NCBI GenBank assembly: GCA_017849585.1
Contig: JAFIGT010000022.1
Location: 62,001-126,000, forward strand
Source of the DNA: Verrucomicrobium sp.
GTDB taxonomy: Bacteria > Verrucomicrobiota > Verrucomicrobiia > Methylacidiphilales > UBA1321
Direction of reading: 5' to 3'
Length of the DNA: 64,000 bases
Of the stretch, positions 73-63,999 are shown one piece after another (position 1 is the first letter of the stretch; every line of letters starts with the position of its first letter). A program made the translations under genes and the position numbers. Under the pieces are notes generated by a model. That model had not been told where the DNA came from. It ran no database searches and saw nothing but the letters and a program-made list of their open reading frames with translations.

Positions 73-85
73 CGATGAGTTAATA
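73..85 (+). promoter_or_regulatory. Shared element box (putative extended -10), CGATGAGTTAATA
   Basis: A match to the window-wide consensus CCRTRDGTTAATA. Five bases separate it from the ATG at 91. Read as a -10 box, it would put the transcript start at or next to the start codon. Confidence 0.7.
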
Positions 86-17236: not shown

Positions 17237-17496
17237 GGCAAGGTGGAAGCCCTTCTCCTGTAGGGAAGGAAATCGGCCCAAATCGATCCGAATTTAAGGG
17301 ATTTTTCTTGGTCGATTAAGCGGAGCTTATGAATGATTTGCTGCGGAAATAAGCCATCAAGGATGGCTCGCCCAAAATCTATTTTTCTTTTGAATCTTAT
17401 CCATCTGATAAATTTGAGGTTAAGAAGTTCGCCTATCTGCCGATCTTATAGGCATCATTAGGCGAGCGCATTCGCCTGTTTCTTAAAGGAAAGGTC

Positions 17497-19704: not shown

Positions 19705-20046
19705 GCCAAACGGATCGGAGTAAAGCCATTTAATCTGGATCAATTGGTTGCGACAATAATTCGGTTCCTGTCGAAAAATCGAATTATGAAAACGAGTCCA
19801 CTGCTTTGGAAAGTTTTCGAGAAGAATGAAAAAACGATAGTCGATGATTTGATTTTAATCGGGGCGGAGCTGGCATGCGGAATTTATCTCTTTTTTACGA
19901 TTCCTTCTGATCTTGCTCCTTTTTGGAAAAACTTTTCCCGACTCATTGCCTCAATAAATCGAACCTCTTTGTTTTAAGGCGTGAAAAATAACGAGATAAA
20001 TACTCCTCTTAATTTTGGTATGAAAATCGAATAGGAAAGAGTGAAT
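19705..20046. other. AT-rich intergenic stretch between the two chemoreceptor genes
   Basis: No convincing gene. A 77-codon ORF at 19744-19977 has no ribosome site and no recognisable features. Confidence 0.4.
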
Positions 20047-25299: not shown

Positions 25300-25805
25300 G
25301 CGCTCGCGCCCATCCTTCTGGTCCGGTGCGCGGCTTTCGTTATCACCGAGACTTTGTGGAGGCAGGTCGAAAAGGGCACAATCCCTGGCCTGATTTGGGA
25401 AACGGAATTCAACCGTGTCGGAAGGAAATCCCGATATAATTCCAGCGGCACGATCAAAACGACCGATTGACTCTCACGCCCCATCCAGTTCGAAACCTGC
25501 CCGAGCCCGTTCACTTCTTTTGGATCTTCGAGCAAACGCAGGAACACATCAGCCCAAATCCAATCCTGCGAGCGAACGTCATGAAGTTCCGAATCCTGCA
25601 TCCATTTGTACGTCGGATGTGTGGTCAAGGATTCCAACGATTTTTCCTGCATCTTCCGAATCAAGGCGAGTTCCGTATCCTTCGCCCAATAAAGGCTTGG
25701 CTTAGAATCGGCCAAAAATTGCTCCAGCCAAATCGCCCACGCTGCCACAAGTGGATTATCGGGAAGAAAAATGGCTTGTTTCTGCTTAGCGCTCGATCTC
25801 GACAT
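25296..25805 (-). CDS. Hypothetical protein, last gene of the T4SS operon
   Basis: 169 residues from the ATG at 25805 (MSRSSAKQKQAIFLPDN), overlapping the end of the lipoprotein gene by 20 bases; the frame is open further upstream but has no better start. Trp- and Leu-rich N-terminal half (WAIWLEQFLADSKPSLYW), no signal peptide. The last 40 residues look unlike the rest (HKVSVITKAAHRTRRM), as if the natural end had been replaced at a junction with the cargo region. Function unknown. Confidence 0.55.
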   Translation of the reverse strand: MSRSSAKQKQAIFLPDNPLVAAWAIWLEQFLADSKPSLYWAKDTELALIRKMQEKSLESLTTHPTYKWMQDSELHDVRSQDWIWADVFLRLLEDPKEVNGLGQVSNWMGRESQSVVLIVPLELYRDFLPTRLNSVSQIRPGIVPFSTCLHKVSVITKAAHRTRRMGASA

Positions 25806-26259
25806 ATTGGTATTCTCCCGGATAAGTGATTCCATTGCTCGTGTAGGATGGTACGTAAATCTGCCGAATTTTGGTCGAAGCTGACGCGGCTTGATTAAGT
25901 GGTGGAGCATTGTAGATCGCCTCACGTTTCCATTGTTCTTCCAGTTGCTCGGCCCGCGCCGCATTTGCACCATCTTCCTGGCCGGTCCGATAGGCCCGTT
26001 GTTTTTGGCTGTCACCCAATTTTTGAATGCCATAGCCAGCAGCCACACCGGTAACAGCACCTACAGCCCCAGTGGTATCGCTGCCACCCAATTCCTTCCC
26101 GGTGAAGTACCCTCCGGCCCCCAATGCTGCAATGGAGCCGTAGCGCACCGTATTATCTCCCATTTGTGTCGTCAGGCTGTCGCGCTGTGAATATTGCGGC
26201 GTACTGCATGCGGTCAACGCAAGGCATACCCCTGTTAAGATCCGTTGGATGTTTTTCAT
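25786..26259 (-). CDS. Small lipoprotein with glycine-zipper segment
   Basis: 157 residues. MKNIQRILTGVCLALTACST has a lipobox (LTAC), so lipid attachment at Cys18 and outer-membrane anchoring are expected. A Gly-rich hydrophobic stretch follows (YGSIAALGAGGYFTG, GAVGAVTGVAAGYGI), then a charged helix (NAARAEQLEEQWKRE) and a C-terminal YVPSYTSNGITYPG. In this operon it could be the T4SS outer-membrane lipoprotein (VirB7/TraV role), but that is inference. Start overlaps the upstream gene by 4 bases. Confidence 0.72.
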   Translation of the reverse strand: MKNIQRILTGVCLALTACSTPQYSQRDSLTTQMGDNTVRYGSIAALGAGGYFTGKELGGSDTTGAVGAVTGVAAGYGIQKLGDSQKQRAYRTGQEDGANAARAEQLEEQWKREAIYNAPPLNQAASASTKIRQIYVPSYTSNGITYPGEYQYVEIER

Positions 26260-28721
26260 AAGGTGATTCCGAAGTTCTTGGCTCTTTCTATTATTAACCC
26301 ACCGTATCCGCCGGTCGGGTCAACGTAGAGTTGCTCAAAGAAAGGCTGGTTGGCGGCATCAGCCTGCATCAGGAATTTCTGCCAAAGACGCACGGTCTCG
26401 GCGTAACGCAGATCACCAGCCCGGCGCCTGGCCAGGCTATCGAGCGCCCTGCGAAGGGCTTCTGGATTTCGCCTGAGTTCCTCCTCCAATTCTTTCGACC
26501 ATGACTCAAAGAGGGATGGACTGGATTCGATCACTCTGGTGACGGCCATGGAATGACCTCCAAAAATGACGGCGCTCAAAAGCGAACTTTTCCATTTCTT
26601 CCAGATTGCGCGGTCGTTGAGCAAGGCAGCGGCGTAAGGCCGCGCTTCCAGTCCATGGTTTGCCAGCAAAATTGAAAACGCCGCACCGCTGTCGTGATAC
26701 CCTGCCGATTGGAGTACACCTTGACATTCTGACGGCAGTCGAATCAACACATCCTGTAAAGCCAAACAGCCGGCCGCATAGATGGGGGATATGACCGGCC
26801 CCGAAGTAAACTGTTTTTGGCATTCCACCGCCAAGGCAGAATCCTCCGGGATCAACATACTTTTCCAGACGGGCTCTACCGCTTCGTCCAAGTCAACGTC
26901 CCCCTCCTTGCATCCCTCCAGATAAGACTGCGAAAATCCCACGGCACGAGTGACCTGAATGGCATCCCCGGCAAGGACGCCCCCGGAACGCGATGGAAGC
27001 GCAGAAGCCATAGCGCGCCAACGCATATAGTCGTCGGTTTGATTGAGCCAGCGATCCATCAGTAATTCCCGGAGAGTCCCCGGAATGCCCCATAGCTCCA
27101 CAGCCAACCTTATCTGGGCCGCTCTCCGCCCCTCCGTCGTTCTCACAAAAGCGGCAAACCAGATCTTGAATCGTCCCACATCCTCACTGATTCCCCCGCG
27201 TGCGGCATCCGCCGCCGCTTGCTGCAACCATTGCCTTGCGGCGGGGTCATCATTCATTTTTCCGGATTGAACCAGCCAGCCGGAGAAAGCATGAAATAAT
27301 GCCGGATCGGTTTTCAGCATACTCTCGATCCAGACACGCGTGGCATCGCCAGAGGAAGGCACGGCCACAGCAAGGGCTTCCGACGCAAACACCGTTCCCG
27401 CCGAACTTTTAGCCGTCAGCATCGTTTTGGCAAAATTCCAATCGAGATTGATCGCAGTCCCCAATACCTCGCCATAGCGTTTCCAATCGTCATTCAGTAA
27501 TTCGCCTGCCGCCCGCCGCTGACGGAATTGAGGTGTATCGGCTCCTGCCGAGACCGCTGGTTTCCTTGCCGCGAGTGGTTCTGCATCCAATGCCTCGGCT
27601 GCTTGCTGAGCCAATGTCGCCTCCTGGGTCAAACTGACCCTGAGTGCTTGCAGGGTTGTCATGCCCACTACCGAAGCAGGACGGGTCAAATGCCAGACAA
27701 GGTAGTTGAACCATTTGTCGTCCCGCAAAATCAGTTCAGACCATTGCGCCAAGGCCCGATCGCTCGCCGAATCCTGTCCCGGATTTCGCCCCGGCTGAAA
27801 CCCATCCCCATAGAGCTGACGGCATACATATTCGTAACGGCTTTCCGGTATGACGCTGGCCTCAGTATAGGCAGCCAATAAGGGCAGGCCTTTGGCAAGC
27901 AACCCTGAGGCCATGTCACGTTGCAGCCTGTCATAAACAGGACTGGCGGCTTTGAGCCGTGTGAAAAGTTCCTTGGTGTAGAGTGGATCTTTCGCTACCG
28001 CTCCGAAAAAAGCCCGCCACACCGATTCATCCAGACTTTGATTGGTTCCCTGATTTCCTTGGGAACGCAACAGCACGCCCAAGGCGCAATTCGACAGACC
28101 CCACCGGGAATTGCTCTCGGCAATCTGGCAGCGCGCCGTAATGTCTCCATCAATAGCAGCCTGCCACAGGGCCTTGGCTGCCCGGCGTGACGCCCTTAAT
28201 CCAACCGCCACGGAGGTCGGGTCCTGTGGATGATCCCAGCACCATTCCAAGCCACGCAGAAACCGGGCCAATCCCGTTGGAGTCTCAAGCACATACTCCA
28301 CCAGAATTTCTTTGCTTGAAGGGTGCGCCATGACCGTTGATATGATTTTGCGGACACGTTCCGTCCCGCTCCCATTCGCCCACGCCGCCAGAATGGTGTC
28401 ACTTTCGTGTGGTGAAATATTGATCAGGGCCAGAGACGATTTGAGGGCTTGCGCCAATAACCAATCCCCCCGCTTCAACGCTTTCCCGATTGCCTCGGTG
28501 GCAGCGGGATCGGACAGCCATTGCTCCACGGCCGATTCGAGCAGCGCCTTGTTGATGACATGCTCCGCCGGCACGGAAGTTTGAACCAAGTATTTGCAGG
28601 CATTGTCCGTTCCCAGAGGGGCGCAAATTTCCTTGGCCTGACAGAAATCAGTAAGCGCGGCGGAATCCGCAGCCAATGCCAAGGACGGCACCGCGAAAAA
28701 CAGGAGCATCCATTGTGTCAT
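26256..28721 (-). CDS. Large exported protein of the T4SS operon, function unknown
   Basis: 821 residues from the ATG at 28721, eight bases after the VirB4 stop. MTQWMLLFFAVPSLALA is a signal peptide; a Cys-containing segment follows (DFCQAKEICAPLGTDNACKY). The remainder is helical and repetitive in feel (LLxxYVLETPTGLARF, VWIESMLKTDPALFHAFSGW), with no membrane segment and no recognised domain. By position it is a periplasmic or surface component of the conjugation machine, in the place where F-like systems carry TraW/TrbC/TraN-type proteins. The open frame upstream of 28721 overlaps virB4 and is not used. Confidence 0.65.
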   Translation of the reverse strand: MTQWMLLFFAVPSLALAADSAALTDFCQAKEICAPLGTDNACKYLVQTSVPAEHVINKALLESAVEQWLSDPAATEAIGKALKRGDWLLAQALKSSLALINISPHESDTILAAWANGSGTERVRKIISTVMAHPSSKEILVEYVLETPTGLARFLRGLEWCWDHPQDPTSVAVGLRASRRAAKALWQAAIDGDITARCQIAESNSRWGLSNCALGVLLRSQGNQGTNQSLDESVWRAFFGAVAKDPLYTKELFTRLKAASPVYDRLQRDMASGLLAKGLPLLAAYTEASVIPESRYEYVCRQLYGDGFQPGRNPGQDSASDRALAQWSELILRDDKWFNYLVWHLTRPASVVGMTTLQALRVSLTQEATLAQQAAEALDAEPLAARKPAVSAGADTPQFRQRRAAGELLNDDWKRYGEVLGTAINLDWNFAKTMLTAKSSAGTVFASEALAVAVPSSGDATRVWIESMLKTDPALFHAFSGWLVQSGKMNDDPAARQWLQQAAADAARGGISEDVGRFKIWFAAFVRTTEGRRAAQIRLAVELWGIPGTLRELLMDRWLNQTDDYMRWRAMASALPSRSGGVLAGDAIQVTRAVGFSQSYLEGCKEGDVDLDEAVEPVWKSMLIPEDSALAVECQKQFTSGPVISPIYAAGCLALQDVLIRLPSECQGVLQSAGYHDSGAAFSILLANHGLEARPYAAALLNDRAIWKKWKSSLLSAVIFGGHSMAVTRVIESSPSLFESWSKELEEELRRNPEALRRALDSLARRRAGDLRYAETVRLWQKFLMQADAANQPFFEQLYVDPTGGYGGLIIERAKNFGITL
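26292..26304 (-). promoter_or_regulatory. Shared element box inside a gene, CGGTGGGTTAATA
   Basis: A strong consensus match on the minus strand, 32 bases before the lipoprotein start, but inside the coding end of the upstream gene (codons for GGLII). The gap is longer than in other sites, so it may be an internal promoter or chance. Confidence 0.4.
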
Positions 28722-28728
28722 GAGCGCC

Positions 28729-31323
28729 TCATCTTTTCTCCGGAATTCCGACGGGGTATTCCCGCGCCAGGGTGCGAAGCGCCAGCCACAGGTCCCCGTT
28801 GGCGGCCTCAACGCCCTGGCTGCGCAGGACACTTTCGTTCGGCTTTGTCGAGAACAACCAATATTCCTCGGGCATGAGATTGATCCGAAGCCGTCCACTT
28901 TCCCGTTGAGTTCCTTTGCCGCGTACCATCAAACACTCCCGAAAAAGTTCCGGGTGTCCCGATTCATTGACCCGTTTGGAGGATCTCAGGTCATTCAAAA
29001 TATTCACCTGTCCCGAGGTCAACCCCAACAGTTTTTGGACAGACTCGACATGCGAGTCATCCCCTTGAGTAAACAGGAACCATGTCTGTACGCATTGCTC
29101 AATGGCCTCGGCGACTCGCGAATTAAAGTTAAGGTCGGCGATAGACTGCGAACTGCCGATTACCGCTGTGTTTTCTTTCCGGTATCGCTTGAAGGCCCCG
29201 ATGATCCGGTCGGCCAACAAGGGATGCCGGATGTATTCGAAGATTTCGTCACAAACAAAAATCTTCCGGACGTCCCTCGAATTGAGGATCAAATCCTGAA
29301 TGAGATCGACGCATAACGGAATCAAGGGGCGAGCCAGATCCGGGTAATCCTTGAACCCCTGCAGGTCCATCACCAATGCTTCTCCATCCGGCCGCCATTC
29401 GGTGGCTCCGTCGAACCACTCGCCCCAGGTGCCACCCCGAACATACGGGCGTAGACGTTCCACCAGCTCTTGCGCTCCGTTGGTTTTGAGCGCGTCCGAA
29501 AAGTCGCTCAACGTGACCATCGTTTTCTTGCGATTGATCGCCTTGGCAAAAGCGTGCGTGATCGAAACGACCACCACGTTTTTCATTTCCGCCGATAACC
29601 CCGCCTCCTCCTTCGGACTCGCTAAAAAAGCTTCAAGCGCTTTGGCGTACCGGGCGATCTCGGCCTCACCGGGTTCATGCAAACCATCCCCAAGGGAAAG
29701 CACCTGAAAAAGATTAAAGCAGACCGGCTTTTTTGGATTAAAGGTGAAGACACGAATCCCGAGCAAATCAGCCAATTGGTTGTAACTGCCACCCACATCG
29801 AGAATCAAAATCCGGACTCCACGCAACGCATGCGAACACAATAAAGCGAGGGCCAGCACCGATTTCCCTGAACCCGTCGCCCCGGAGATAAATGCCATCG
29901 GTGCGGTCGCGGTGGTCGAATCGAAAAGATCGATCGGCACCAAACCGTTGGTGGCATTGCGAAATAACGCCACCGGCTTGTCGGAGGTTTCGAATCCCCG
30001 GTTGAGAAGGCACATATCAGCAATCATGCGGCTCCGGTACTTTTTCGGCTCCAGCATCGGTCCTCCCGCTGCGGGCATGCTCTGCAACAAAATCGGTAGG
30101 ACAGCGTGTCGTTCTGCATACCCACGCGCCGATCCCATGTCTCCCAATCGCGTTAAGAGAATGTCCCGGCGTCGGATCAATTCAACGGGGTCGCGATGCC
30201 AGAAATGCCAGGTTTGCTGGGCCAGCATGAGGCTTTCACGCCCACCGCGCAGATCGGCAATGAGCGCATTGGCTTCCCGAACCATCTCGTTGGCTTCTTC
30301 GTTGGAACTCTGGCCATCCTGCGTTCTTCCAGTTGTTTTCAACGGGTCTTGAACCAGTTCCAGCCAGTTGGAGGAAACATCCTTTGCCGCCTCAGCTTCC
30401 ACCCGCTTGGCCCGCAACCTCGCCCGCTCCTCGATCTGGTCGAGCCGCCGGATACGCAATAATGTCCTAAACTGCCGGAAAGGGATTCCCGCCGATACGG
30501 TGTCGGAAATGCGCGGCCAAGTTTCCAGCGGTTTTCCCATCAAGGAAACCACCGTGTGATAAGTTTCGTCCCAACGGATTAGTCCTGATCCTGGGGCGAT
30601 CCGCCCATCGGTTTTCCACGGAACTGTATCCACGTCCCCTAGAAGCCATGAATCGAGAAACTGCGTTTCTTCCTCCCGGTAACGCACTGGTATTCCCAAT
30701 TCCACGGCGGCCCAATGGTTCAGAACCCGGTAAAAATAGTCAGCCACCCGATCTCCTCCGAGAATGGTGATTTTGGCACCCACGCGATGCGCCCAATCCT
30801 GCGCCACTTCAACGGCGTTCTGCAGGACCGGCTCCATTTTACAGAACTCCATGTCCGTCACTGGTTGACGCAAAAACTTCTCATTTTTCCGAAGGACGGG
30901 AACACTGCCCAAGGTGATATGCGTGGCAGCGGGAATCAGGATTCCTTCCCGAATTTCCTGAGCGGCCAAATCTCCTTTGAGCTGACGCATTTTCCGCAAC
31001 ACCTCTCGGTCATGTTCAAAACCTGTGTACTCGCCAAGCATGGGGCCATAATCCCCGGTGGCCGTGAACATGAATTCCACTTCGCCGATGGATTCAGGAA
31101 GACGGGACAAGAGCGCCACGAGTTGGTCTTGAACCGCGGTCAAACGGTCTACCGAAAAAACATCCATCGTCGGTGCTTGCAGTTCGGCCATCTGGTGGAC
31201 GCCTCCCCATGCGTCCAGAATATACGAACCTTTCAAATCGACCGGGCTGGCAAATTCCGCCGGATCGGGATAACGATGGCCCGATACCCAGCCAAGCCGA
31301 GGAATGCCTTTGGTGGAAAACAT
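28729..31323 (-). CDS. virB4: Type IV secretion ATPase, VirB4/TraC family
   Basis: 864 residues from the ATG at 31323 (MFSTKGIPRLGWVSG), 5 bases after the TraL-like stop; a TTG at 31407 would overlap that gene by 79 bases. Walker A FISGATGSGKS lies near residue 481, followed by ILILDVGGSYNQLADLLG, and Walker B IFVCDEIFEYI near 688, with a Gln-containing AVIGSSQSIADL motif after it. The N-terminal part (GEVEFMFTATGDYGPML) fits the VirB4 barrel domain. It powers pilus assembly and substrate transfer at the inner membrane. It is the clearest marker that this operon is a conjugation system. Confidence 0.92.
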   Translation of the reverse strand: MFSTKGIPRLGWVSGHRYPDPAEFASPVDLKGSYILDAWGGVHQMAELQAPTMDVFSVDRLTAVQDQLVALLSRLPESIGEVEFMFTATGDYGPMLGEYTGFEHDREVLRKMRQLKGDLAAQEIREGILIPAATHITLGSVPVLRKNEKFLRQPVTDMEFCKMEPVLQNAVEVAQDWAHRVGAKITILGGDRVADYFYRVLNHWAAVELGIPVRYREEETQFLDSWLLGDVDTVPWKTDGRIAPGSGLIRWDETYHTVVSLMGKPLETWPRISDTVSAGIPFRQFRTLLRIRRLDQIEERARLRAKRVEAEAAKDVSSNWLELVQDPLKTTGRTQDGQSSNEEANEMVREANALIADLRGGRESLMLAQQTWHFWHRDPVELIRRRDILLTRLGDMGSARGYAERHAVLPILLQSMPAAGGPMLEPKKYRSRMIADMCLLNRGFETSDKPVALFRNATNGLVPIDLFDSTTATAPMAFISGATGSGKSVLALALLCSHALRGVRILILDVGGSYNQLADLLGIRVFTFNPKKPVCFNLFQVLSLGDGLHEPGEAEIARYAKALEAFLASPKEEAGLSAEMKNVVVVSITHAFAKAINRKKTMVTLSDFSDALKTNGAQELVERLRPYVRGGTWGEWFDGATEWRPDGEALVMDLQGFKDYPDLARPLIPLCVDLIQDLILNSRDVRKIFVCDEIFEYIRHPLLADRIIGAFKRYRKENTAVIGSSQSIADLNFNSRVAEAIEQCVQTWFLFTQGDDSHVESVQKLLGLTSGQVNILNDLRSSKRVNESGHPELFRECLMVRGKGTQRESGRLRINLMPEEYWLFSTKPNESVLRSQGVEAANGDLWLALRTLAREYPVGIPEKR

Positions 31324-31328
31324 AAAAT

Positions 31329-31637
31329 CTAGCCATGCTGGCCGCGTGACGATCCTCGGTCCAATTGATGACGAAAGCGCTTCGGCGCATAAAACTCCCA
31401 ACGCCAATATTCCAGAAAATGTCCCGGCTTTCCCCGAAAGTAGAATTTCAAAATACCGTAGGAAATAAACCCAGCCAGCAACGCCAGGAGAAAACTCCTT
31501 GGGGGAATGTTCATCAAAAAAATCCCCACAAAGAATGGGAGCATGAAGAGACGCCCGGGAAGTCCCAATACCTCCCCCCGGTCTTCCGTAATGATGGATG
31601 AGCGCGTCTTGGGCAATTGCCCCTGTTCCGAATTCAT
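31329..31637 (-). CDS. T4SS inner-membrane protein, VirB3/TraL-like
   Basis: 102 residues with two close hydrophobic segments (MLPFFVGIFLMNIP and FLLALLAGFISYGILK) and a basic cytoplasmic tail (FRGKPGHFLEYWRWEFY). Size, topology and position directly before virB4 match VirB3/TraL, which links the pilus-assembly ATPase to the membrane. It overlaps the upstream pilin-like gene by 4 bases. Sequence similarity is too low by eye to choose between the VirB3 and TraL names. Confidence 0.75.
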   Translation of the reverse strand: MNSEQGQLPKTRSSIITEDRGEVLGLPGRLFMLPFFVGIFLMNIPPRSFLLALLAGFISYGILKFYFRGKPGHFLEYWRWEFYAPKRFRHQLDRGSSRGQHG

Positions 31638-31930
31638 GAACCCGCCCCTGATGAGAGAATCAAAGAGGTAATCCCACCTGAGACAACAATCATGACGAAT
31701 CCGATCGCGAACGAAATGATCCGGTCGGTTTTTCCTCCCACCAAGGCTTGATCGACCCAGAGCAGAACTCCGTAAACGGAAGCCAGTCCAAGGGCAATGC
31801 CCCCCACGTAATTGTTGGCGGCGGAAAGGGAATTCTGGATGACGCTACTCAAGTCACCACTCCCGCTGGATTGAGCCGAAGCGGATAAGGTTCCCCATAA
31901 CAAGAATAAAACGGATGCTTTCCAGTTCAT
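31634..31930 (-). CDS. Pilin-like protein, VirB2/TrbC type (copy 2)
   Basis: 98 residues. A signal peptide (MNWKASVLFLLWGTLSASAQ) precedes a mature part with two hydrophobic helices (YVGGIALGLASVYGVLLWVD and IISFAIGFVMIVVSGGITSL) separated by a short charged loop (GGKTDR). This is the layout of conjugative pilins. Its start overlaps the stop of the other pilin-like gene by one base (TAATG-type junction). One of the two may form the pilus and the other a minor or variant subunit. Confidence 0.78.
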   Translation of the reverse strand: MNWKASVLFLLWGTLSASAQSSGSGDLSSVIQNSLSAANNYVGGIALGLASVYGVLLWVDQALVGGKTDRIISFAIGFVMIVVSGGITSLILSSGAGS

Positions 31931-32250
31931 CAGCTTGCTCCCGTCGCCGCTTTCGTGAATTCGATGAACGCACCAACGATGCCCAGCCCGATCGCTGACA
32001 CTAACGCGCCAATGGCAACGGTTTTATTCACCGCCCACATCATGAATCCAACTACGCCCAATAGCCCGATCACGACCCAGGCCACGGCGCGAAAATTGAG
32101 ATAAAGATTGAAGACAGTGCTGATGAGGTCTCCACCCATGGTCGGGCTGGAACTCAATGTCCCGGCCAGCACACCTTCCGGCCAAACAACCATCGTCCAT
32201 ATAGCGATAAGGAAAATTCGATAATACTCGCGGCGGACATCCACGTTCAT
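31930..32250 (-). CDS. Pilin-like protein, VirB2 type (copy 1)
   Basis: 106 residues. A leader (YYRIFLIAIWTMVVWPEGVLAG) is followed by two membrane helices (FRAVAWVVIGLLGVVGFMMW and IGALVSAIGLGIVGAFIEF) around a short NKTV loop, as in VirB2. The ATG lies 8 bases after a shared GTTAATA box, so transcription can restart here inside the operon, which would give extra pilin mRNA. AAGGG immediately upstream could also serve as a ribosome site. Confidence 0.78.
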   Translation of the reverse strand: MNVDVRREYYRIFLIAIWTMVVWPEGVLAGTLSSSPTMGGDLISTVFNLYLNFRAVAWVVIGLLGVVGFMMWAVNKTVAIGALVSAIGLGIVGAFIEFTKAATGAS

Positions 32251-32258
32251 ACCCTTGT

Positions 32259-32271
32259 TATTAACTCATGG
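32259..32271 (-). promoter_or_regulatory. Shared element box, CCATGAGTTAATA
   Basis: It fills the 15-base gap between the exported-protein stop (32266) and the pilin start (32250), with 8 bases from box to ATG. An internal promoter for the pilin genes fits their need for high expression. Confidence 0.7.
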
Positions 32272-33051
32272 CTTTTGGGCAATCCGGAACACGACCTCTC
32301 CACACGTTTTTAGGGTTAGGCGCAATTGCTCATCGTTGACGAACTCACCAAGCCTTGACCGGGCCGCGTCAAGAGCGGTGGCCGTCCACCCGGCAATGAG
32401 CAACCCCTTCGTGTCTAAGCGAGCCCGCCATCTTCCTTTCTGTGAAGACGGGGAAACGAGTTCCTCCGTTTTTCCATTGTCGGCCACATACCGGACCGCC
32501 ATCGGACTGCTGTAGATGAACCAGCCTTCAGCCACCCTCTGAATGACAATGGCTTGAAAGATCTGCAGACTGCCTCCACTCAAACGGATGGCCCCTTTGA
32601 GAAGTGCGCCGTTTTCCCCATTCGGTAGCACCCGCCATGCGATGGGTTGCTCGCCTTCAGGATTGAGATTCGGCTGACGCGCAAACCGGATTTTGAGTTG
32701 CCCGGTTTCCCACCACTGCTTGGAGAGATCAACTGGAACCGGAAAGGCGCTTAAGGTGAATGGAATTTTCTCGGAGACAGAAAGACTCTCGATCCAGCTC
32801 CTCTGATCAATAACGTTGGCAACTGCTTTGGGAGTTTGTGAAATGGTGGATGTGGCCGGAACCGCTGCGGGAGGGATTGATGGGGTTGGTGCTGATGGTG
32901 GTGCCGGATTAACGGCTGCCGCCGGGTCCATATCCGGAAGCAAACCAGTTGGTGCTGAATCCGCCGCATGGATCATTCCGGTCTGCAAAAAGAGAATGCA
33001 GAAAAAGCTACCGGCTCTTTTCCAGAAATTTGATTTGCTGCAAAAGCGCAT
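32266..33051 (-). CDS. Exported T4SS-operon protein with proline-rich linker
   Basis: 261 residues. A signal peptide (AGSFFCILFLQTGMIHAADS) is followed by a Pro/Ala-rich linker (about 35-80) and a beta-rich C-terminal half (PVPVDLSKQWWETGQLKIRF, EGWFIYSSPMAVRYVADNG). In conjugation operons this place is often held by VirB9/TraK-type secretin-like or periplasmic proteins. I see no definite signature, so the role is by position only. The start overlaps the upstream gene by 44 bases. Confidence 0.65.
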   Translation of the reverse strand: MRFCSKSNFWKRAGSFFCILFLQTGMIHAADSAPTGLLPDMDPAAAVNPAPPSAPTPSIPPAAVPATSTISQTPKAVANVIDQRSWIESLSVSEKIPFTLSAFPVPVDLSKQWWETGQLKIRFARQPNLNPEGEQPIAWRVLPNGENGALLKGAIRLSGGSLQIFQAIVIQRVAEGWFIYSSPMAVRYVADNGKTEELVSPSSQKGRWRARLDTKGLLIAGWTATALDAARSRLGEFVNDEQLRLTLKTCGEVVFRIAQKP

Positions 33052-33556
33052 TTCTTCGAGCCGTTAGACGGTTGATTTCATCTTGAAGGGGATTTTCCGC
33101 GGAGTCCTCGGCCGAGGAGACAACATAGGTATCGCCCTCCTTTTTGATCACCACATCCGTCAACTGAGTCAACGGGACGATCAAATCATCGACTGTAATT
33201 CCGCCGCCGGTTTGAATGGCGATAGTCAGCGTTCCCCCCGCTTGCTTCGCCGCACGCTGAAGCGCCCACAGTTCGCGCAGGTCCAGTCTTAACTTCGAAA
33301 ATGTCGGTTGTAGAGGCTGCGGTAATTGCCCGTTCTGGGCGGCAGAAATGGAAGAGGTGGCTACCGGAGAAACCGCGACAGTTGGTCGGGACGGACCGAT
33401 GTCAACAGGAGTAGAAGCCGTAGCCAAGCTCACTGCCTCCACTTTCAACAGCTCGGCTTTTTCTTCTTTTTGGGGTGGCTGTTTAGGTCCGGCAAGAAGT
33501 CCCGTGCCAGCTAAAACCAGTATCACGGCACTCATCAAAATCGTATGCGTTCTCAC
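33008..33556 (-). CDS. Exported coiled-coil protein, first gene of the T4SS operon
   Basis: 182 residues, GTG start. A signal peptide (TILMSAVILVLAGTGLLAG) leads to a low-complexity Pro/Ser/Thr region, a compact middle domain (LTIAIQTGGGITVDDLIVPL) and a C-terminal coiled coil (LQDEINRLTARRNALLQQIK). The GTG follows a GTTAATG box by 7 bases with no ribosome site, so it would be read from a leaderless mRNA if the box is a promoter. Role unknown; a periplasmic scaffold is plausible. Confidence 0.65.
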   Translation of the reverse strand: MRTHTILMSAVILVLAGTGLLAGPKQPPQKEEKAELLKVEAVSLATASTPVDIGPSRPTVAVSPVATSSISAAQNGQLPQPLQPTFSKLRLDLRELWALQRAAKQAGGTLTIAIQTGGGITVDDLIVPLTQLTDVVIKKEGDTYVVSSAEDSAENPLQDEINRLTARRNALLQQIKFLEKSR

Positions 33557-33563
33557 AAGGAAT

Positions 33564-33576
33564 CATTAACACACGC
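33564..33576 (-). promoter_or_regulatory. Shared element box, GCGTGTGTTAATG
   Basis: Seven bases before the GTG of the first T4SS gene. It differs from the core only at the last base. It is divergent from the box for the sigma gene at 33680-33692. Confidence 0.6.
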
Positions 33577-33679: not shown

Positions 33680-33692
33680 GGATGTGTTAATA
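33680..33692 (+). promoter_or_regulatory. Shared element box before the sigma factor, GGATGTGTTAATA
   Basis: The core lies 43 bases before the GTG start at 33736, a longer gap than elsewhere. An ATG at 33702 lies 9 bases after the box and would open a 37-codon upstream ORF. Presence of the box implies the sigma factor may control its own gene. Confidence 0.6.
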
Positions 33693-33701
33693 ATATACCT
33701 A

Positions 33702-33815
33702 ATGGTAAGATCAAACGTGAAACACAGGAGGAGTTGTGGGAGTCAACATGGCTACATGTGGCAGTGGGACAAAACGAACGGATTCCGAATGGGTAGAACT
33801 CGCGCGACAGCATGA
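33702..33815 (+). CDS. Possible upstream ORF overlapping the sigma factor start
   Basis: 37 codons in a different frame from the sigma gene, beginning 9 bases after the shared box (the normal spacing) and ending inside the sigma coding region. The product (MVRSNVKHRRSCG...) is basic and has no recognised feature. It could be a leaderless regulatory ORF that tunes sigma translation, or chance. Confidence 0.25.
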   Translation: MVRSNVKHRRSCGSQHGYMWQWDKTNGFRMGRTRATA

Positions 33816-34590
33816 CAGCACCGCGATCCAATGGGCGCTTGACCAAACGAAACGTTCACGCTCATTGGAGGCACGCAAATGGTTCCGAGGGGAAGCCGAT
33901 ATTTGCGATGCCGAACAGCAAGGCGTATTGGGTGTTTTTGATGCGATTGAGAAATTTGACACCAAGCTATCAAGCTCCTTCGCGGTTTATGCCGGCTGGC
34001 GTATCAAGCGCCGGATTCAAGGTTACTTTCATAACACCGTCTTCCCTGTCCGGCTTCCTTCCTGGCTTCATGAAAAGCGGATCAAATTTCTTCGCCACGC
34101 CCAATCCGCCACCGAACTGTATGATTTGATGGTCAAAAATAGCGTCCAACCTGACATCGCCCGAGTTGCCGCGTTTGTCACCGCCAGCCCTTCGATGGAC
34201 GGGCTCACCGAACACGAGGAAAATCCTCACATGTTCGTGGTTCTCAAGGATCGGGAAGTTCCGATTTCAGCCCCATCTGACGCTGGAGAATTCGACGGGG
34301 AAACCAGCCTTCTGAACGAACTTCTGGATTCCCTGCCACGCCAACAGGCTACGCTCTTGCGTCAACTGTGGAGAATAGAACACCACGATAAAGACATCGC
34401 CGATGTCCTGCGCGAGATGAACCTTACCATCGAGGAAGGAAATGAAATCCAGAAAAAAGCCATCATGCGTCTTCGCCGCCATCCCAAATTGAAGCAGTTC
34501 GCGCGACGGCTCAAATTCAAAACCGTGGATGAACTTCCCGATTTCGTCCTGATCTCAAAATCATCGACAAAAAAGCGTTCGACATTCTGA
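33736..34590 (+). CDS. Element-encoded RNA polymerase sigma-70-family factor
   Basis: 284 residues. Region 2 is clear: ADICDAEQQGVLGVFDAIEK then FDTKLSSSFAVYAGWRIKRR, followed by VFPVRLPSWLHE, like the start of region 3. A region 4-like helix-turn-helix occurs at about 195-250 (LPRQQATLLRQLWRIEHHDK, IQKKAIMRLRRHP). GGAGG sits 4 bases before the GTG; an ATG at 33748 is an alternative. It lacks the long region 1 of housekeeping factors. Preceded by the shared box and divergent from the T4SS operon, it is the best candidate to read the GTTAATA promoters. Confidence 0.82.
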   Translation: MGVNMATCGSGTKRTDSEWVELARQHDSTAIQWALDQTKRSRSLEARKWFRGEADICDAEQQGVLGVFDAIEKFDTKLSSSFAVYAGWRIKRRIQGYFHNTVFPVRLPSWLHEKRIKFLRHAQSATELYDLMVKNSVQPDIARVAAFVTASPSMDGLTEHEENPHMFVVLKDREVPISAPSDAGEFDGETSLLNELLDSLPRQQATLLRQLWRIEHHDKDIADVLREMNLTIEEGNEIQKKAIMRLRRHPKLKQFARRLKFKTVDELPDFVLISKSSTKKRSTF

Positions 34591-35186: not shown

Positions 35187-35199
35187 TGGCGTGTTAATA
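35187..35199 (+). promoter_or_regulatory. Shared element box, TGGCGTGTTAATA
   Basis: Seven bases (GTACTTC) separate it from the ATG at 35207. No ribosome-binding sequence exists in that gap, which is one of the strongest cases for leaderless translation. Confidence 0.7.
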
Positions 35200-35206
35200 G
35201 TACTTC

Positions 35207-35527
35207 ATGGGCACATCCACCTACCTGCTTCCCCAGACGCGCTGCACCCAAAAATTGGAGACTCTGATGTCGAATGAGCTGGGGGTCACTGCATTGGAAG
35301 GGTTGGAGGCTGTCCTTGTCACCACACCCGCCAATCGTGAAATCATCATTATCTGCTTATCGGGTCGCTGGCATACGGGCCGTCTCATTTATGGAGTAGG
35401 CGATGCCTATGCCACCATCAATTGCCCCGTTCACGCGCAACATATTCCCGCCATCCATCCGCTGTTCCGAACCGTTGTCGTCTGCGCCGCATTGATCAAA
35501 AGGCTGCACAATGTACGGAGAAATTAA
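35207..35527 (+). CDS. Hypothetical protein, first of a three-gene operon
   Basis: 106 residues, no signal peptide. The second half is hydrophobic-to-mixed (REIIIICLSGRWHTGRLIYG, FRTVVVCAALIKRL). Not recognised. It overlaps the next gene by 17 bases and starts directly after the shared box. The two genes that follow encode membrane proteins, so the operon probably builds one membrane complex. Confidence 0.6.
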   Translation: MGTSTYLLPQTRCTQKLETLMSNELGVTALEGLEAVLVTTPANREIIIICLSGRWHTGRLIYGVGDAYATINCPVHAQHIPAIHPLFRTVVVCAALIKRLHNVRRN

Positions 35528-38197: not shown

Positions 38198-38512
38198 TTA
38201 CCTCCCCGACGAATGCTGGACGGCGTTAATGATCTCCTGAAGTGGCCCCACGCCCTCGTTGCCACGCTTAAGGGAAAGCTTCGCCACTGCGGAGGTAATG
38301 GGCGAGATGGCATCTGCAATACCTCCATGGGTCTGGGCCAGATTGTTGGCAAAATAAGCCATAAAATTATTGTGCTGCGCAACCGAAGCATCGAGCTGCG
38401 CTTCAAGCCAGGAAAAGGCTCCCGAGGCCGTCTTGCCGGCCATGGTCTTCACCCGATGAAACTTGTTCGTGTTAGTGACCGGGATGGTTCTGGCGATTTT
38501 GGCGGAGTTCAT
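38198..38512 (-). CDS. Small hypothetical protein, first of a two-gene operon
   Basis: 104 residues, soluble and helical, with a basic N-terminus (AKIARTIPVTNTNKFHRVKT) and no recognised domain. The ATG at 38512 lies 10 bases after the shared box. It is paired with the glycine-zipper protein and could act as its chaperone or immunity partner, a guess from size and order only. Confidence 0.55.
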   Translation of the reverse strand: MNSAKIARTIPVTNTNKFHRVKTMAGKTASGAFSWLEAQLDASVAQHNNFMAYFANNLAQTHGGIADAISPITSAVAKLSLKRGNEGVGPLQEIINAVQHSSGR

Positions 38513-38522
38513 TCATCTCTAT

Positions 38523-38535
38523 TATTAACCCATGG
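38523..38535 (-). promoter_or_regulatory. Shared element box, CCATGGGTTAATA
   Basis: Ten bases from box to the ATG at 38512. Upstream it shares GCCCAA with the box at 32259 (both read GCCCAA before the CCATG). Confidence 0.7.
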
Positions 38536-38852: not shown

Positions 38853-39812
38853 ATGAACTTAACTGACGCTCAACTCAATACCTTCGTTTCAAAAGTCCTT
38901 CATTTAGGACGAGGCAAACGAAAGGAATATCTTGACCAAGTTGATTTTCTGATTGGGGGCTTGAACAAAAAGATCAAGGAAGATGATTCATTTAAGGTTA
39001 CTGATTTTAAAAAAACCGGCTCCATCATGAAAGGAACCGTTCTCAAACCGCGGGGAGATTTTGGCGTCGATGCTGATATAGCTGTATTCTTGGATATTTC
39101 GGAAAGCGAAAAAGACGATGTCGACAACCTGCACAAGATTATCCGCGATCTCCTCGTTGCCGTATATCCGACCAAAAAGCCCGATGACTTTAAAGTCCAA
39201 CCTCGTACACTCGGCATTCATTTTCGTACTTCGGGACTCGATGTGGATCTTGTTCCGGTGATCCCAATCTCCCAACAACCTGGATATGGATGGCAACCAT
39301 CCTCTCAACGGGGGCATCCTGTAAAAACATCTATTCAAGGACAGTTGGATTTTATTAAAAAACGAAGAGATTCTGATCCGAGGTTCAAAACATTAGTCCG
39401 CTTGCTTAAAAATTGGCGAAATGAGAAAGAACTTGATCGGCTTCGATCTTTTTCCATCGAACTTATCGTAGCGCATTTGTACGATCAAAATGGTGCCGCG
39501 TCTTCGTTAGAATCAGGACTTCAGCGCTTCTTTCTGTATGTCGCTCAGTCCCAACTTAAAAAACGAATTGTTTTCCCGGAGCTTGGCAATGTAACAACTT
39601 TTCCCAACGACCCAGTGGTAATTCTTGATCCTGTAAATAAAGATAACAATGTTGCCGCTCGACTAACAGCAACCGAAAGAGATGAGATCGTAGTTGCCGC
39701 CGAAAGCGCATGGTCCACTATCGAGGCGGCAAGTTGGAAAGCAGGAAAAGGCGATACTCTCGATCTTTGGAAGGATGTTATGGGACGGTCGTTTGTAATC
39801 GAAGAGGAATAA
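38853..39812 (+). CDS. CBASS cyclic-oligonucleotide synthase (CD-NTase)
   Basis: 319 residues. The nucleotidyltransferase core shows the G-S motif TGSIMKGT (G56-S57), the metal-binding pair in GVDADIAVFLD (D73, D75) and a third acid in SGLDVDLVPVIP (about D130/D132). A helical C-terminal domain follows (FSIELIVAHLY). Proteins of this family sense phage infection and make cyclic di- or trinucleotides that switch on a cell-killing effector. The HORMA and TRIP13-like genes downstream place it in type III CBASS, where the synthase is usually clade C or D; I cannot fix the clade by eye. Confidence 0.9.
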   Translation: MNLTDAQLNTFVSKVLHLGRGKRKEYLDQVDFLIGGLNKKIKEDDSFKVTDFKKTGSIMKGTVLKPRGDFGVDADIAVFLDISESEKDDVDNLHKIIRDLLVAVYPTKKPDDFKVQPRTLGIHFRTSGLDVDLVPVIPISQQPGYGWQPSSQRGHPVKTSIQGQLDFIKKRRDSDPRFKTLVRLLKNWRNEKELDRLRSFSIELIVAHLYDQNGAASSLESGLQRFFLYVAQSQLKKRIVFPELGNVTTFPNDPVVILDPVNKDNNVAARLTATERDEIVVAAESAWSTIEAASWKAGKGDTLDLWKDVMGRSFVIEEE

Positions 39813-40335: not shown

Positions 40336-41246
40336 TGAAAGAAGGAAACTCGGCGCTATTTGAATTGGAGGTACAACTTCCTGATGCTCGGCTGACAGCA
40401 CAAGCAGAAAGGTTAATTGGATTTAAAACACGCTTCGAACGTATCCATCAAGATTTACTTCTCCTCATTGATAAGGAAGGATTGGAGCGATGGAGTAAGC
40501 AGCATTATCATTCGCGTCTTCCATTATTGGATTCGTTGCTCGACCGCTATCCTCTCGTCGTTTTTCACGGTGATGTAGGAACTGGAAAAACAGCGACAGC
40601 CGAGGCTGTTTCCAATGCCATTGCGAAGGAACTAGGGAAAGAAGCCATGCTTTTCAAACTGAGCACGCGCGTGCGTGGGAGCGGTAATGTTGGGGAGATG
40701 AGTACGCTTATCAATCAGGCATTTGATCTCGTATGCAAGGAGGCTGGAAAAGCGAAGCTATCCTTTTTGATTATTGATGAAGCAGACTCTTTAGCTGCCA
40801 GCCGCTCAGGACACCAAAGTCATCATGAAGATAAAGTAGCTGTAAATACCTTGATTCAAAAAATAGATGATATCAGACGTTTTAATGGCCGTATTTTGGT
40901 AATCTTCTGTACTAATCGTTACGAGGCGATTGATCCTGCAATTTTGCGCCGAGCCGCTTATGTGGAAAAATTTAGTAGGCCTGATGATAGAGAGAGGCGC
41001 GAAATCTTTAATATGGATTGCGCCGGAATGGGCATGACCGCAGTGATGATTGATGAATTGGTAAAGCTGGCTGGCCCTCAAGGCCCACATAAACTCAGCT
41101 ATACATTTTCAGACATTCGCACTCGCCTTCTTCCTGAAGCGTTGGGATTAGCCTATCCATCCCGGAAAATTAGTCAGAACGATTTGGTGGAGGCCATTTC
41201 CAGAGTTCATCCGTCACCAACTATCGAAGAATCTGGAAAACGCTAA
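40332..41246 (+). CDS. cap6: TRIP13/Pch2-like AAA+ ATPase of CBASS
   Basis: 304 residues. Walker A FHGDVGTGKTA (80-88), Walker B LSFLIIDEADSLAASRSG (about 144-160), sensor-1-like ILVIFCTNRYEAIDP and an arginine-containing ILRRAAYVEKF match the TRIP13 class. It dismantles the active HORMA-synthase complex, keeping the system off without infection. The start ATG at 40332 overlaps the HORMA stop. Its last base overlaps the first base of the effector start codon, so the four genes are tightly coupled. Confidence 0.9.
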   Translation: MMKEGNSALFELEVQLPDARLTAQAERLIGFKTRFERIHQDLLLLIDKEGLERWSKQHYHSRLPLLDSLLDRYPLVVFHGDVGTGKTATAEAVSNAIAKELGKEAMLFKLSTRVRGSGNVGEMSTLINQAFDLVCKEAGKAKLSFLIIDEADSLAASRSGHQSHHEDKVAVNTLIQKIDDIRRFNGRILVIFCTNRYEAIDPAILRRAAYVEKFSRPDDRERREIFNMDCAGMGMTAVMIDELVKLAGPQGPHKLSYTFSDIRTRLLPEALGLAYPSRKISQNDLVEAISRVHPSPTIEESGKR

Positions 41247-42412
41247 TGAATCTGAATGGTCGCCGCATTCATATTGTTGGTAGTGCAGATCCTGAATCCG
41301 ATCCGGTTAAGTTGCAGTATGCCCACTCACTTCTTTCAAAATTAACATTTGCCTTGGCGAAAGAAGGAGCAACTTTTGTTATTCCCATTGCAAGTGAACC
41401 TTTATTAAAAGATCGTACCGACGGTCCATCAATTATTTTTGATTGGACGATCGTGGAAACAATTCATCGCGCATTAAATGAAGAAGGCGTAAGTCCCACA
41501 GGTTCCAATGGCCGTCTCATAGCAACCTTAGTAACTTCCAAGACAGACGGACAAATTCCATCAACTCGTCGCGAAATTTACGATGATCTTAGGGATAGGG
41601 AGGCTATCTATATGGATTTTTTGCCTCCGGGATGGACGGCGGGAGCCCTACGAAGACAAAGACTCGCTCAGCTTGGAGATATTTTAATTGGCGTAAGTGG
41701 TGGGCAAGGGGTTGAACAACTGGCGATTGAATACTCTACCAAGGGTAAACCAGTTATCCCCCTTGACCTGGCAATGGGAGCTTCACAACGGGATGGATCT
41801 GGAGGAGCAGCACGCCTTTTTGATCGAGCTCTCGCAACACCGGCAGATTTTTTCGGCGTTGTAGAAGGAGGGTCTCCGGCTGAATTGCTGGAACGAACTC
41901 GGACACGAAATGGAGAAACCGACGCAGATAAGGTTGTTCAGTCGATAATGAATCTTCTGCATAAGTTGCTTCCGCCCCGCGTTTTTTATGTGCGTCTACT
42001 GAATGACGACTTACCGGAATATCCATCGGTTGAAAGCTTTTTTAGAAATACGGTGGATCCATTTGTTAAGCAATTAGGCTACGAACCATTGCAAATGGGG
42101 GTCGGTCAGAATACATTCGCCTGGATGAATCAAGCCATTTTTGATTCTTTACACCATAGCTCGGTTGCGCTGGTTGATCTTACGGGAGTGCGTCCCAATT
42201 GTTTTATGGAACTTGGATATGCCTTGGGTAATAGACAAAAGGTGATAGTAACGGCACGGAACGATACCCGCCTGCCATTTGATGCGTTTGCATTCGAAAC
42301 ATTTTTATGGAATGAATCCGAAGAGGATACTAACCGATTTGAACGATTACGTACCCATTGGGAGCGGAATATAAATATGCCTACTCTCGTGCGTCCGAAC
42401 GAGGCCATATGA
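41246..42412 (+). CDS. Two-domain CBASS effector candidate: SLOG-like plus TIR/NDT-like
   Basis: 388 residues. The N-terminal half starts with RIHIVGSADPESDPVKLQYA and has LAQLGDILIGVSGGQGVEQL, both like Rossmann-type SLOG or TIR-related nucleotide-binding domains. The C-terminal part has DSLHHSSVALVDLTGVRPNC followed by FMELGYALGNRQKVIV, the hallmark of nucleoside deoxyribosyltransferase-like or TIR-like NAD-cleaving domains. The obvious reading is a sensor domain for the cyclic nucleotide plus an NAD+ or nucleotide hydrolase. It sits where CBASS effectors normally lie. No nuclease or membrane segment is present. Confidence 0.72.
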   Translation: MNLNGRRIHIVGSADPESDPVKLQYAHSLLSKLTFALAKEGATFVIPIASEPLLKDRTDGPSIIFDWTIVETIHRALNEEGVSPTGSNGRLIATLVTSKTDGQIPSTRREIYDDLRDREAIYMDFLPPGWTAGALRRQRLAQLGDILIGVSGGQGVEQLAIEYSTKGKPVIPLDLAMGASQRDGSGGAARLFDRALATPADFFGVVEGGSPAELLERTRTRNGETDADKVVQSIMNLLHKLLPPRVFYVRLLNDDLPEYPSVESFFRNTVDPFVKQLGYEPLQMGVGQNTFAWMNQAIFDSLHHSSVALVDLTGVRPNCFMELGYALGNRQKVIVTARNDTRLPFDAFAFETFLWNESEEDTNRFERLRTHWERNINMPTLVRPNEAI

Positions 42413-43479: not shown

Positions 43480-43879
43480 GGTCTCCTTCCCTGTTGCGAG
43501 CTTGAATAGTTCTGGCCCGGGTCAGTCCGATCCCAGGCATTCCTTCCTCTCGATTGGAAAAGGCTTGGGATACTTTGCGGAGCAATTGGCGCATAATTCC
43601 CTGGCGGGCTTCCATCCGGCTTTGACGAATGCGCAACCGGATCTGAGCCACCTTTCCCAGCCCGATGGATTCCGCCTGAAATTTGTCCCAATTCTGGGTC
43701 GCTTCGGATTCGGCGCGATCGGCAGCGCGGCCCGCTACTTGGCTCAGTGTCTTGATGCCCTTGATTAAATTTGGACGTTCTGCACACACATGCTGGGCAG
43801 CGCGCTCGAATTCTTCTGGATGACTCTCGGCAAATTGAGTCAGGAGCATAAGCGATTGAACAGGAGCAGTAGGCTTCAT
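43463..43879 (-). CDS. Hypothetical basic helical protein
   Basis: 138 residues, rich in Arg, Gln and Ala (RIRQSRMEARQGIMRQLLRK), probably helical and nucleic-acid-binding or a structural subunit. It overlaps both neighbours (4 bases upstream, 17 downstream). Function unknown. Confidence 0.6.
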   Translation of the reverse strand: MKPTAPVQSLMLLTQFAESHPEEFERAAQHVCAERPNLIKGIKTLSQVAGRAADRAESEATQNWDKFQAESIGLGKVAQIRLRIRQSRMEARQGIMRQLLRKVSQAFSNREEGMPGIGLTRARTIQARNREGDRGHQR

Positions 43880-44481
43880 TTTTGAAGGGCCGGTTGGGGA
43901 GTTTCTTGAGATGCGGCGGGGGCGGCAGCCCGCGTCAGCGCCGGATTGGCCGCCGGAGTTGTAGGAACGGTTGCCGCTTGAACCGCGCCATTCTGTTTGC
44001 TGAGTTCCTTGTCTTCCGCAATTTGGAGCGCCCGCGTCTGTGGTTTCTGGGCCAGATGCGGGTGAAGTCGCTGTTTCAAGTCCTCATGGGATTTCACCAA
44101 GGATAACGCTTTGTCTTCAGCATTTTGAGCCACCAGTTCCTTGATATTGAAACTAATGCATTTCACCAACCGCTCCTTGGGAATATAGCTCTTAATCAAG
44201 TCGTAACTTTCGGCCATCCCATCCGGTCGAATTTCCCATTCGCCCTGGCGATTTTCCCAAAAGGCGCGCTGAATCGGCGCCTGATTGTCCAAGGCACTTT
44301 TCAAGACTCCCTTAAATTCTTTGACCTGTTTTTCGGCTTCCACCACCACTGGAAGGGAAGCATCAATGGCAGCGGCCGCCCCTTCCAGATCACCGGCATC
44401 CAGCATCTGCTTGATCGGCTCCAAGGCGGGCAAGGTCACCGGGGGCTTACCAACCGAGACGTCCTTTTTTTTAGTGCTCAT
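43876..44481 (-). CDS. Hypothetical helical protein with Ala/Pro-rich tail
   Basis: 201 residues. A Lys-rich start (MSTKKKDVSVGKPPVTLP) and helical body (VEAEKQVKEFKGVLKSALDN, DKALSLVKSHEDLKQRL) precede a low-complexity Ala/Thr/Pro tail from about residue 160. Not recognised. The ATG at 44481 is 9 bases after the shared box. First gene of the three-gene operon 44481-42991. Confidence 0.62.
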   Translation of the reverse strand: MSTKKKDVSVGKPPVTLPALEPIKQMLDAGDLEGAAAAIDASLPVVVEAEKQVKEFKGVLKSALDNQAPIQRAFWENRQGEWEIRPDGMAESYDLIKSYIPKERLVKCISFNIKELVAQNAEDKALSLVKSHEDLKQRLHPHLAQKPQTRALQIAEDKELSKQNGAVQAATVPTTPAANPALTRAAAPAASQETPQPALQK

Positions 44482-44490
44482 GCCACTTAC

Positions 44491-44503
44491 TATTAACTTA
44501 TCG
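44491..44503 (-). promoter_or_regulatory. Shared element box, CGATAAGTTAATA
   Basis: Nine bases to the ATG at 44481. It is divergent from the box at 44539-44551, so about 50 bases between the two boxes hold both promoters. Confidence 0.7.
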
Positions 44504-44538: not shown

Positions 44539-44551
44539 TCGTGGGTTAATA
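44539..44551 (+). promoter_or_regulatory. Shared element box, TCGTGGGTTAATA
   Basis: Seven bases (AGAAAGT) to the ATG at 44559. The spacing matches the putative -10 reading. Confidence 0.7.
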
Positions 44552-44558
44552 AGAAAGT

Positions 44559-45170
44559 ATGGCTCCCACTCCATCCGCCCCGCTTGAAGCCCCGCTGGTT
44601 ATCGTCCAATTGCCGTGGTTTGAAAATCCGTCCTACACTTTCTTCTACGAGGAGAATGAAGACAAGGTACGCGTCCACATGCCATGCTCTCCCGAGGCAC
44701 GGCGGTCCATCCTGCTTCTCTGCCAACATTTTTTGGCATCGGCCGATATTTTTGGGATCTGGCAGCCGGTCGACCAACAAGCCGACCGCCTTCTGCGCCT
44801 GATGCCTCAAGGAACCTTGTCTTCCTGCTGGCTCCGGGCCTTGGTGTCTTTCCGGTACATCAAACAAGTGGTCGAACAATTTGCTTCCACGACACTTTTT
44901 AACCGTTCACCGGACGAAGAAGATGGGATTGATCTCGCGCCCCACGAGCAGTGGGCTCTGCGGGAAGCTGCTATGTGTTGGCGGGATGTCCTGTACCCTG
45001 CCTTTGCCAAAGACAATGCCTACCCTTTTGGAGAAGATGTTCTTTCGGCATTCGATCCCACCATCGAACTCATTGATTCCTGGACATGGATCGACCCGTT
45101 GAAAGGTTATCTGAGAATCCGCCCCTTGGCCGAAACGGATGAATCTCCAGAGGAACCTCCAACGTCGTGA
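44559..45170 (+). CDS. Hypothetical protein, first gene of a + strand operon
   Basis: 203 residues, soluble, aromatic-rich (LVIVQLPWFENPSYTFFYEE, LIDSWTWIDPLKGYLRI). Not recognised. It begins directly after the shared box and its stop overlaps the GTG of the next gene by 4 bases, so the three genes 44559-46766 are coupled. No membrane segment. Confidence 0.6.
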   Translation: MAPTPSAPLEAPLVIVQLPWFENPSYTFFYEENEDKVRVHMPCSPEARRSILLLCQHFLASADIFGIWQPVDQQADRLLRLMPQGTLSSCWLRALVSFRYIKQVVEQFASTTLFNRSPDEEDGIDLAPHEQWALREAAMCWRDVLYPAFAKDNAYPFGEDVLSAFDPTIELIDSWTWIDPLKGYLRIRPLAETDESPEEPPTS

Positions 45171-54242: not shown

Positions 54243-54255
54243 TATTAACCTACGG
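54243..54255 (-). promoter_or_regulatory. Shared element box, CCGTAGGTTAATA
   Basis: Starts at the stop codon of the preceding gene (54250) and lies 11 bases before the ATG at 54231. A GGGAGG occurs 17 bases upstream of TTAATA, as also (18 bases) at the 59405 site. Confidence 0.7.
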
Positions 54256-54804: not shown

Positions 54805-54806
54805 AA

Positions 54807-59404: not shown

Positions 59405-59417
59405 TATTAACATACGG
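59405..59417 (-). promoter_or_regulatory. Shared element box, CCGTATGTTAATA
   Basis: Eight bases before the micropeptide ATG at 59396. GGGAGG lies 18 bases upstream of TTAATA. It is divergent from the box at 59447, about 30 bases away. Confidence 0.7.
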
Positions 59418-59815: not shown

Positions 59816-59828
59816 GGCTAGGTTAATA
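59816..59828 (+). promoter_or_regulatory. Shared element box, GGCTAGGTTAATA
   Basis: Ten bases before the ATG at 59839 of the small ASCH/DUF3850-like gene. No ribosome site lies in the gap (GTTGTGTGTT). Confidence 0.65.
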
Positions 59829-63977: not shown

Positions 63978-63986
63978 GCAATTACC

Positions 63987-63999
63987 TATTAACACGCGG
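63987..63999 (-). promoter_or_regulatory. Shared element box, CCGCGTGTTAATA
   Basis: Nine bases before the secretin ATG at 63977, at the very end of the window. The gap GGTAATTGC has no ribosome-binding sequence. Confidence 0.7.

Follow-up and report, generated by a model that had tools for sequence, protein, structure and literature searches.

Genes of type IV secretion systems (T4SS) and of conjugation are usually described under the control of activators and repressors acting on housekeeping promoters. The late sigma factor gp55 of phage T4 uses TATAAATA late promoters, which consist of a single -10-type element without a -35 element. This architecture is shared with the system described here, which differs in showing no sign of a sliding-clamp activator and in the presence of sigma regions 3 and 4. 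In the SXT/R391 mobile elements, the transcriptional activator SetCD is the master regulator of conjugation genes (PMC4344509). A master regulator turning on such genes would be common to both systems; the present candidate is a sigma factor, and it comes without evidence of mobility. The closest working analogue appears to be ComX/SigX, which acts with the CIN-box TACGAATA in late competence of streptococci (PMC6224593). Both systems would employ a dedicated sigma factor of the sigma-70 family and a short -10-type word near start codons, and in both the regulon would comprise a DNA-transport machine with pilus-like parts. The system described here differs in its hexamer, in carrying TGn and an A-tract, in the predicted control of T4SS plus type IV pilus genes, in a sigma gene that is itself boxed and in belonging to a Gram-negative order; the likeness is one of analogy. 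The ComX/SigX class is defined by the CIN-box and a competence regulon, and the box found here, TGnGTTAATA, places the system outside it. The open-access literature yielded no paper on a T4SS-dedicated sigma factor or on leaderless transcription in the phylum, which does not prove their absence.

The analysis started from a 64,000-nucleotide stretch of DNA (the window) and was extended to its genome and to related genomes. The sigma gene and its surroundings (Table 1) quite probably represent a system in which a dedicated alternative sigma factor serves a T4SS/type IV pilus machine by reading an extended -10 promoter without a -35 element.

Table 1. Coordinates of the sigma gene, the GTTAATA boxes and associated genes in the window.
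Feature	Coordinates	Strand	Evidence or remarks
Box before ORF 91-609	79..85	+	
Box upstream of 25786-26259	26292..26298	-	Within end of preceding gene
VirB4/TraG-type T4SS ATPase	28729..31407	-	Pfam P-loop_TraG, 3e-23
Box before small T4SS genes 31930-32250, 31634-31930, 31329-31637	32259..32265	-	
First gene of divergent T4SS operon	33008..33556	-	Homologues adjoin sigma gene in relatives
Weak variant box GTTAATG	33564..33570	-	9.6 bits (near shuffle level); 7 nt before GTG of T4SS operon
Box GTTAATA before sigma gene	33686..33692	+	CTAAAAACGGATGT upstream; 27 bits
Sigma-70-family factor, regions 2-4	33736..34590	+	Pfam r2, PHROG 351, PDB profile match, AlphaFold2
Box before 35207-35527	35193..35199	+	
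Box before 38198-38512	38523..38529	-	
Box before 43876-44481	44491..44497	-	Divergent pair with box 44545
Box before 44559-45170	44545..44551	+	
Box before 53041-54231	54243..54249	-	Pilus block
Box at start of pilus operon with T2SSF protein 58117-59337	59405..59411	-	
Weaker box	59822..59828	+	16.5 bits; without clear target gene
Box before secretin gene 62397-63995	63987..63993	-	

The original prediction described a sigma-70-like protein with region 2 but without region 1, encoded divergently from a T4SS operon and preceded by the box. This description was borne out in each part by Pfam, PHROG 351 and PDB profile matches, by the start of the operon at 33556 (-), opposite the sigma gene (+), and by the GTTAATA ahead of that gene. 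The sigma reading frame comprises 284 aa if it starts at GTG 33736, or 280 aa if it starts at ATG 33748, which has a GGAG 5 nt upstream. The distance from the box is 43 nt to the GTG and 55 nt to the in-frame ATG. Pfam Sigma70_r2 matched with 27.8 bits (gathering score 24), and PHROG 351 ('RNA polymerase sigma factor') matched residues 45-249 (3e-16); the RpoD_Cterm and PHROG 351 alignments spanned residues ~45-253. Because a profile of the window sigma and its homologues aligned to solved RpoS/SigA over positions ~22-258 (about 240 positions, 5e-26), regions 3 and 4 were taken to be present besides region 2. PHROG 351, RpoD_Cterm, the Pfam r4 and r3 matches of a homologue and a predicted helix-turn-helix (HTH) indicated the same. 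In the AlphaFold2 model, confident helices (regions 2-3) were predicted at residues ~13-150, followed by a disordered linker (154-188); region 4, with the HTH at residues 221-247, was modelled less confidently. Region 1.1 was absent. Nearest by profile were the group 2/3 sigma-70 factors (RpoS, SigA-like, FliA/WhiG), with which regions 2-4 are common. The window sigma differs from these in altered 2.4 and 4.2 contact residues, and it scored far below all NCBIfam equivalog cut-offs (RpoD, RpoS, FliA-WhiG, RpoH), the best being TIGR02393 with 49.7 bits against a cut-off of 354.

Genes of the machine were found on two contigs. Contig C24 encodes a VirD4-type coupling protein, a VirB11-like ATPase and a ParA-like protein; contig C3 encodes VirB4/TraG plus a pilus block with T2SSE, T2SSF and secretin. 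Since T4SS genes of the C24 and C3 types form a single cluster in relatives, and since T4SS and pilus blocks share one contig in G023, the boxed regions were regarded as one conserved system. The sigma gene had also been predicted to be encoded by a mobile element. This part was not supported: synteny of the T4SS/sigma locus extends across an order, ordinary chromosomal genes (MFS, histidine kinases, chemotaxis receptors) occupy the left part of the window, and the genes of the regulon are divided between two contigs. Among the proteins scanned, none was recognised as a relaxase or integrase. Between the T4SS and pilus blocks, a SMODS-like nucleotidyltransferase (just below the Pfam cut-off) and a Cap17-like N-terminal ATP-nucleosidase domain are encoded at 38853-39812 and 41246-42412; together they resemble a CBASS-like defence cassette.

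The window contained 12 copies of GTTAATA where 2.9 were expected, and 0 of 100 shuffles reached 12. A motif model was built from 20 exact sites on the two system-bearing contigs (C3 and C24) and gave a ~20-bp motif, (C/A)AAAAnC(G/C)(A/G)TGnGTTAATA(A/G)nA. At the TGn positions, T was present in 17 of 20 sites and G in 15, with A in the remaining five, as in an extended -10 element. Column information was close to zero 13 to 35 bp upstream of the box and was concentrated in the A-tract, C-S-R-T-G-n and GTTAATA; the motif was therefore read as an extended -10 without -35. With TGn put in the extended -10 register, the hexamer is GTTAAT, which departs from TATAAT at -12 and -11 only. In most cases 8-10 nt separate the end of the hexamer from the start codon, whereas a few boxes are 16-33 nt away, which speaks against the extended -10 reading.

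The box was restricted to genes of the machine almost throughout. Across the 4.79 Mb of the genome, the pattern T(A/G)nGTTAATA-N4-11-ATG had 15 distinct sites: 14 fell within the T4SS/pilus regions of C3 and C24, and the fifteenth was on contig C39. The reversed pattern had 2 sites genome-wide, and six relatives without the machine had 0-3 sites each. Matrix scanning added the variant GTTAATT ahead of a C24 operon, whose third gene is a homologue of VirB10/TrbI-type proteins, and the variant GTGAATA (19.3 bits, C3 56349 (-)). The latter precedes a PilB-like ATPase gene (54341-56341) left of the window, so the regulon reaches past the window. Ahead of the divergent T4SS operon itself, the scan gave the weak GTTAATG (9.6 bits), which likewise counts against the proposed reading. 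Given its box, the secretin gene would start at the ATG just downstream of that box. On C24, two divergent boxes stand 29 bp apart (44031/44061; L019 4031/4061), each ahead of a gene start, and competition between them would be expected if both were full promoters.

With ~20 bp including an A-tract, the motif exceeds a -10 element, and it could instead be the operator of a DNA-binding activator or repressor, with the promoters located elsewhere. Activators do serve other conjugation systems, e.g. SetCD (PMC4344509). The box is, however, directional, stands at a short and almost constant distance from the start codon and has the extended -10 register, and the divergent C24 boxes leave little room for separate promoters; an operator is considered improbable. 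A translation-initiation or mRNA element of the 5' leader would likewise account for a box just upstream of start codons, with purine-rich words sometimes in between. Such an element is very improbable, as the A-tract and TGn keep a fixed register further upstream and the box of the sigma gene itself is 43-55 nt from its start. In addition, a properly spaced Shine-Dalgarno sequence was present at just 2 of 17 boxed starts (15 of 72 controls); the two proportions do not differ, and the test does not separate leaderless from led mRNAs.

Direct searches with the window sigma found no close relative in the genome and viral contigs, plasmids, phages and 387 genomes of the phylum; with this sequence alone, nothing was obtained above RpoD-level matches. 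The family was reached only via the neighbouring VirB4-like gene, whose protein retrieved 18 genomes in the order. In these relatives, a sigma gene of about 270-410 codons divergently adjoins a homologue of the 33008-33556 gene or lies close by, and the window sigma has the same divergent position beside the T4SS operon. A search with one family member separated 13 genomes, every one VirB4-positive and with E 1e-17 or better, by a clear gap from the remaining matches. The latter (1e-12 and weaker) were sized like general sigmas of the order; the ones examined (L062, L063, L094, L095) grouped with RpoD. Counting the window genome, the linked sigma was present in 14 of 18 VirB4-positive genomes and in 0 of 42 negative ones (Fisher, 2e-10, ignoring relatedness among genomes). 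Against the profile of the relatives, the window sigma scored 46.8 bits versus 49 for the best RpoD, and it is very divergent. In the tree it fell on the T4SS-sigma side (100/99), but on a very long branch. Synteny, an N-terminal match and this long-branched tree would place the window sigma in the T4SS-linked family. In f9 relatives, a ParB gene (ParB_N + HTH_ParB; L050 6441-8036) comes after the sigma gene; none was seen adjoining the window sigma.

Three genomes (G013, G021, G026) carry the VirB4-like gene without a linked sigma. In G019 (L087 9147-11400), ParB and two orthologous boxes are kept and the sigma gene is missing from its expected place, where the contig is continuous; this genome possesses RpoD and a 283-aa sigma. 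G019 therefore favours a reading in which the box is a -10 element used by RpoD or by a second ~300-aa sigma (contig C4 in the window genome), the linked sigma serving some other function. Retention of TAAT in the box, as in TATAAT, points the same way. Still, this reading is unlikely: relatives with RpoD and mostly such a ~300-aa sigma have almost no boxes, and a general sigma leaves unexplained both the restriction to one machine and the variation of the box between lineages together with the linked sigma. The original prediction had made the linked sigma the reader of the GTTAATA boxes and had counted genomes with the motif and without the sigma against it. One such genome, G019, was found, which weakens the prediction in part; the sigma does co-occur with the machine. 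On the comparative evidence, the linked sigma is a likely reader of the boxes, and its predicted control of both T4SS and pilus genes is supported.

GTTAATA itself was sought in the relatives and gave nothing convincing, and a clear box was not found in G023, the closest machine relative. A de novo search in three AT-rich genomes (G035, G032, G043) yielded CCTATTT(A) at cluster starts. CTATT was the most enriched of 1024 5-mers, present at 20 of 63 cluster starts versus 1 of 49 starts outside (2e-5, uncorrected for 1024 words), and CCTATT was counted 13 times at cluster starts versus 0 outside. At orthologous starts in GC-rich genomes, TGTCCTATT stands about 9 nt ahead of the ATG; in orthologous genes of G041, G038 and G045, sequences such as CTGTCCTATTAGATCCCCCATG and GGTGTCCTATTACTCAAACCATG have the hexamer about 9 nt before ATG. 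The strongest evidence on the box of the relatives comes from a cross-lineage test, for which a 6-bp matrix was trained solely on the bases upstream of GTTAATA in the window genome. This matrix told start-proximal CCTAT(T/G) from other copies in GC-rich genomes (p 8e-7; most control copies lie inside coding sequence), and its mean score in the relatives peaked at zero shift. TGn was present at 8 of 14 start-proximal CCTAT(T/G) in GC-rich relatives versus 5 of 55 other copies (p 3e-4). The same genes in relatives thus appear to carry CCTATT at the same position and with the same upstream TGn as GTTAAT.

As a search pattern, CCTATTWAWA-N-ATG was unspecific in AT-rich genomes. TGTTACA repeats were set aside as a candidate for the box of the relatives; they were seen upstream of sigma only, beside an ordinary TTGCCG/TACAAT promoter. 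The repeats were seen upstream of the sigma genes in L051, L050, L053 and L054, with a conserved TTGCCG-N16-TACAAT promoter in AT-rich relatives, and GTAACAT occupies their position in GC-rich relatives. Possibly these words are the operator of a regulator that starts the cascade. In G043, a composite region (15882-21117) contains three tandem paralogous genes with the identical word CCTATTTAAAG upstream.

In sigma70, Q437 and T440 read -12, H455 and E458 read the -14 G, and the -35 element is read by R584, E585 and R588 (PMC2613000). The window sigma was aligned to the RpoD of its own genome, which carries Q437, T440 and E458. Here, R437 and Q440 were found and E458 was retained; sigmas of the CCTATT lineage have N437, R440 and R458. 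Both the hexamer (GTTAAT versus CCTATT) and the residues 437/440 expected to read it vary between lineages. The CCTATT lineage must read TGn otherwise, because E458 is replaced by R. By reading of the alignment, the window sigma also appears to depart from RpoD in region 4.2 at the residues that contact the -35, in keeping with the lack of a -35 motif.

In the proposed mechanism, the sigma factor with core RNA polymerase would recognise TGn and then GTTAAT, in a promoter that lacks a recognisable -35 element but has a tract rich in A some 10 bp further upstream. A sigma reading TGn and an altered hexamer near ATG would explain position, directionality, the missing -35 and the parallel differences in hexamer and sigma, and we infer that this sigma binds the box. 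Since about 9 nt lie between the end of the hexamer and most start codons, transcription would start within about 0-4 nt of the ATG at most boxed genes, and the T4SS/pilus mRNAs would be leaderless or nearly so. At the sigma gene, the box would be followed by a ~40-50-nt leader with a Shine-Dalgarno sequence; judging from this strong box (27 bits), the sigma probably amplifies its own synthesis, as the original prediction had proposed with its self-amplifying switch.

The comparisons lean towards an order-wide chromosomal sigma family for one T4SS/pilus machine, in which the hexamer has been rewritten (GTTAAT versus CCTATT) along with region 2.4, position and TGn staying fixed; these would be co-evolving sigma-promoter pairs with leaderless transcripts. 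If a dedicated sigma is true, the whole machine would be switchable by one protein, and unannotated genes could be assigned to it by the box. The hexamers of the different lineages would then be natural sigma/promoter pairs in which the reading of -12/-11 by region 2.4 may be probed.
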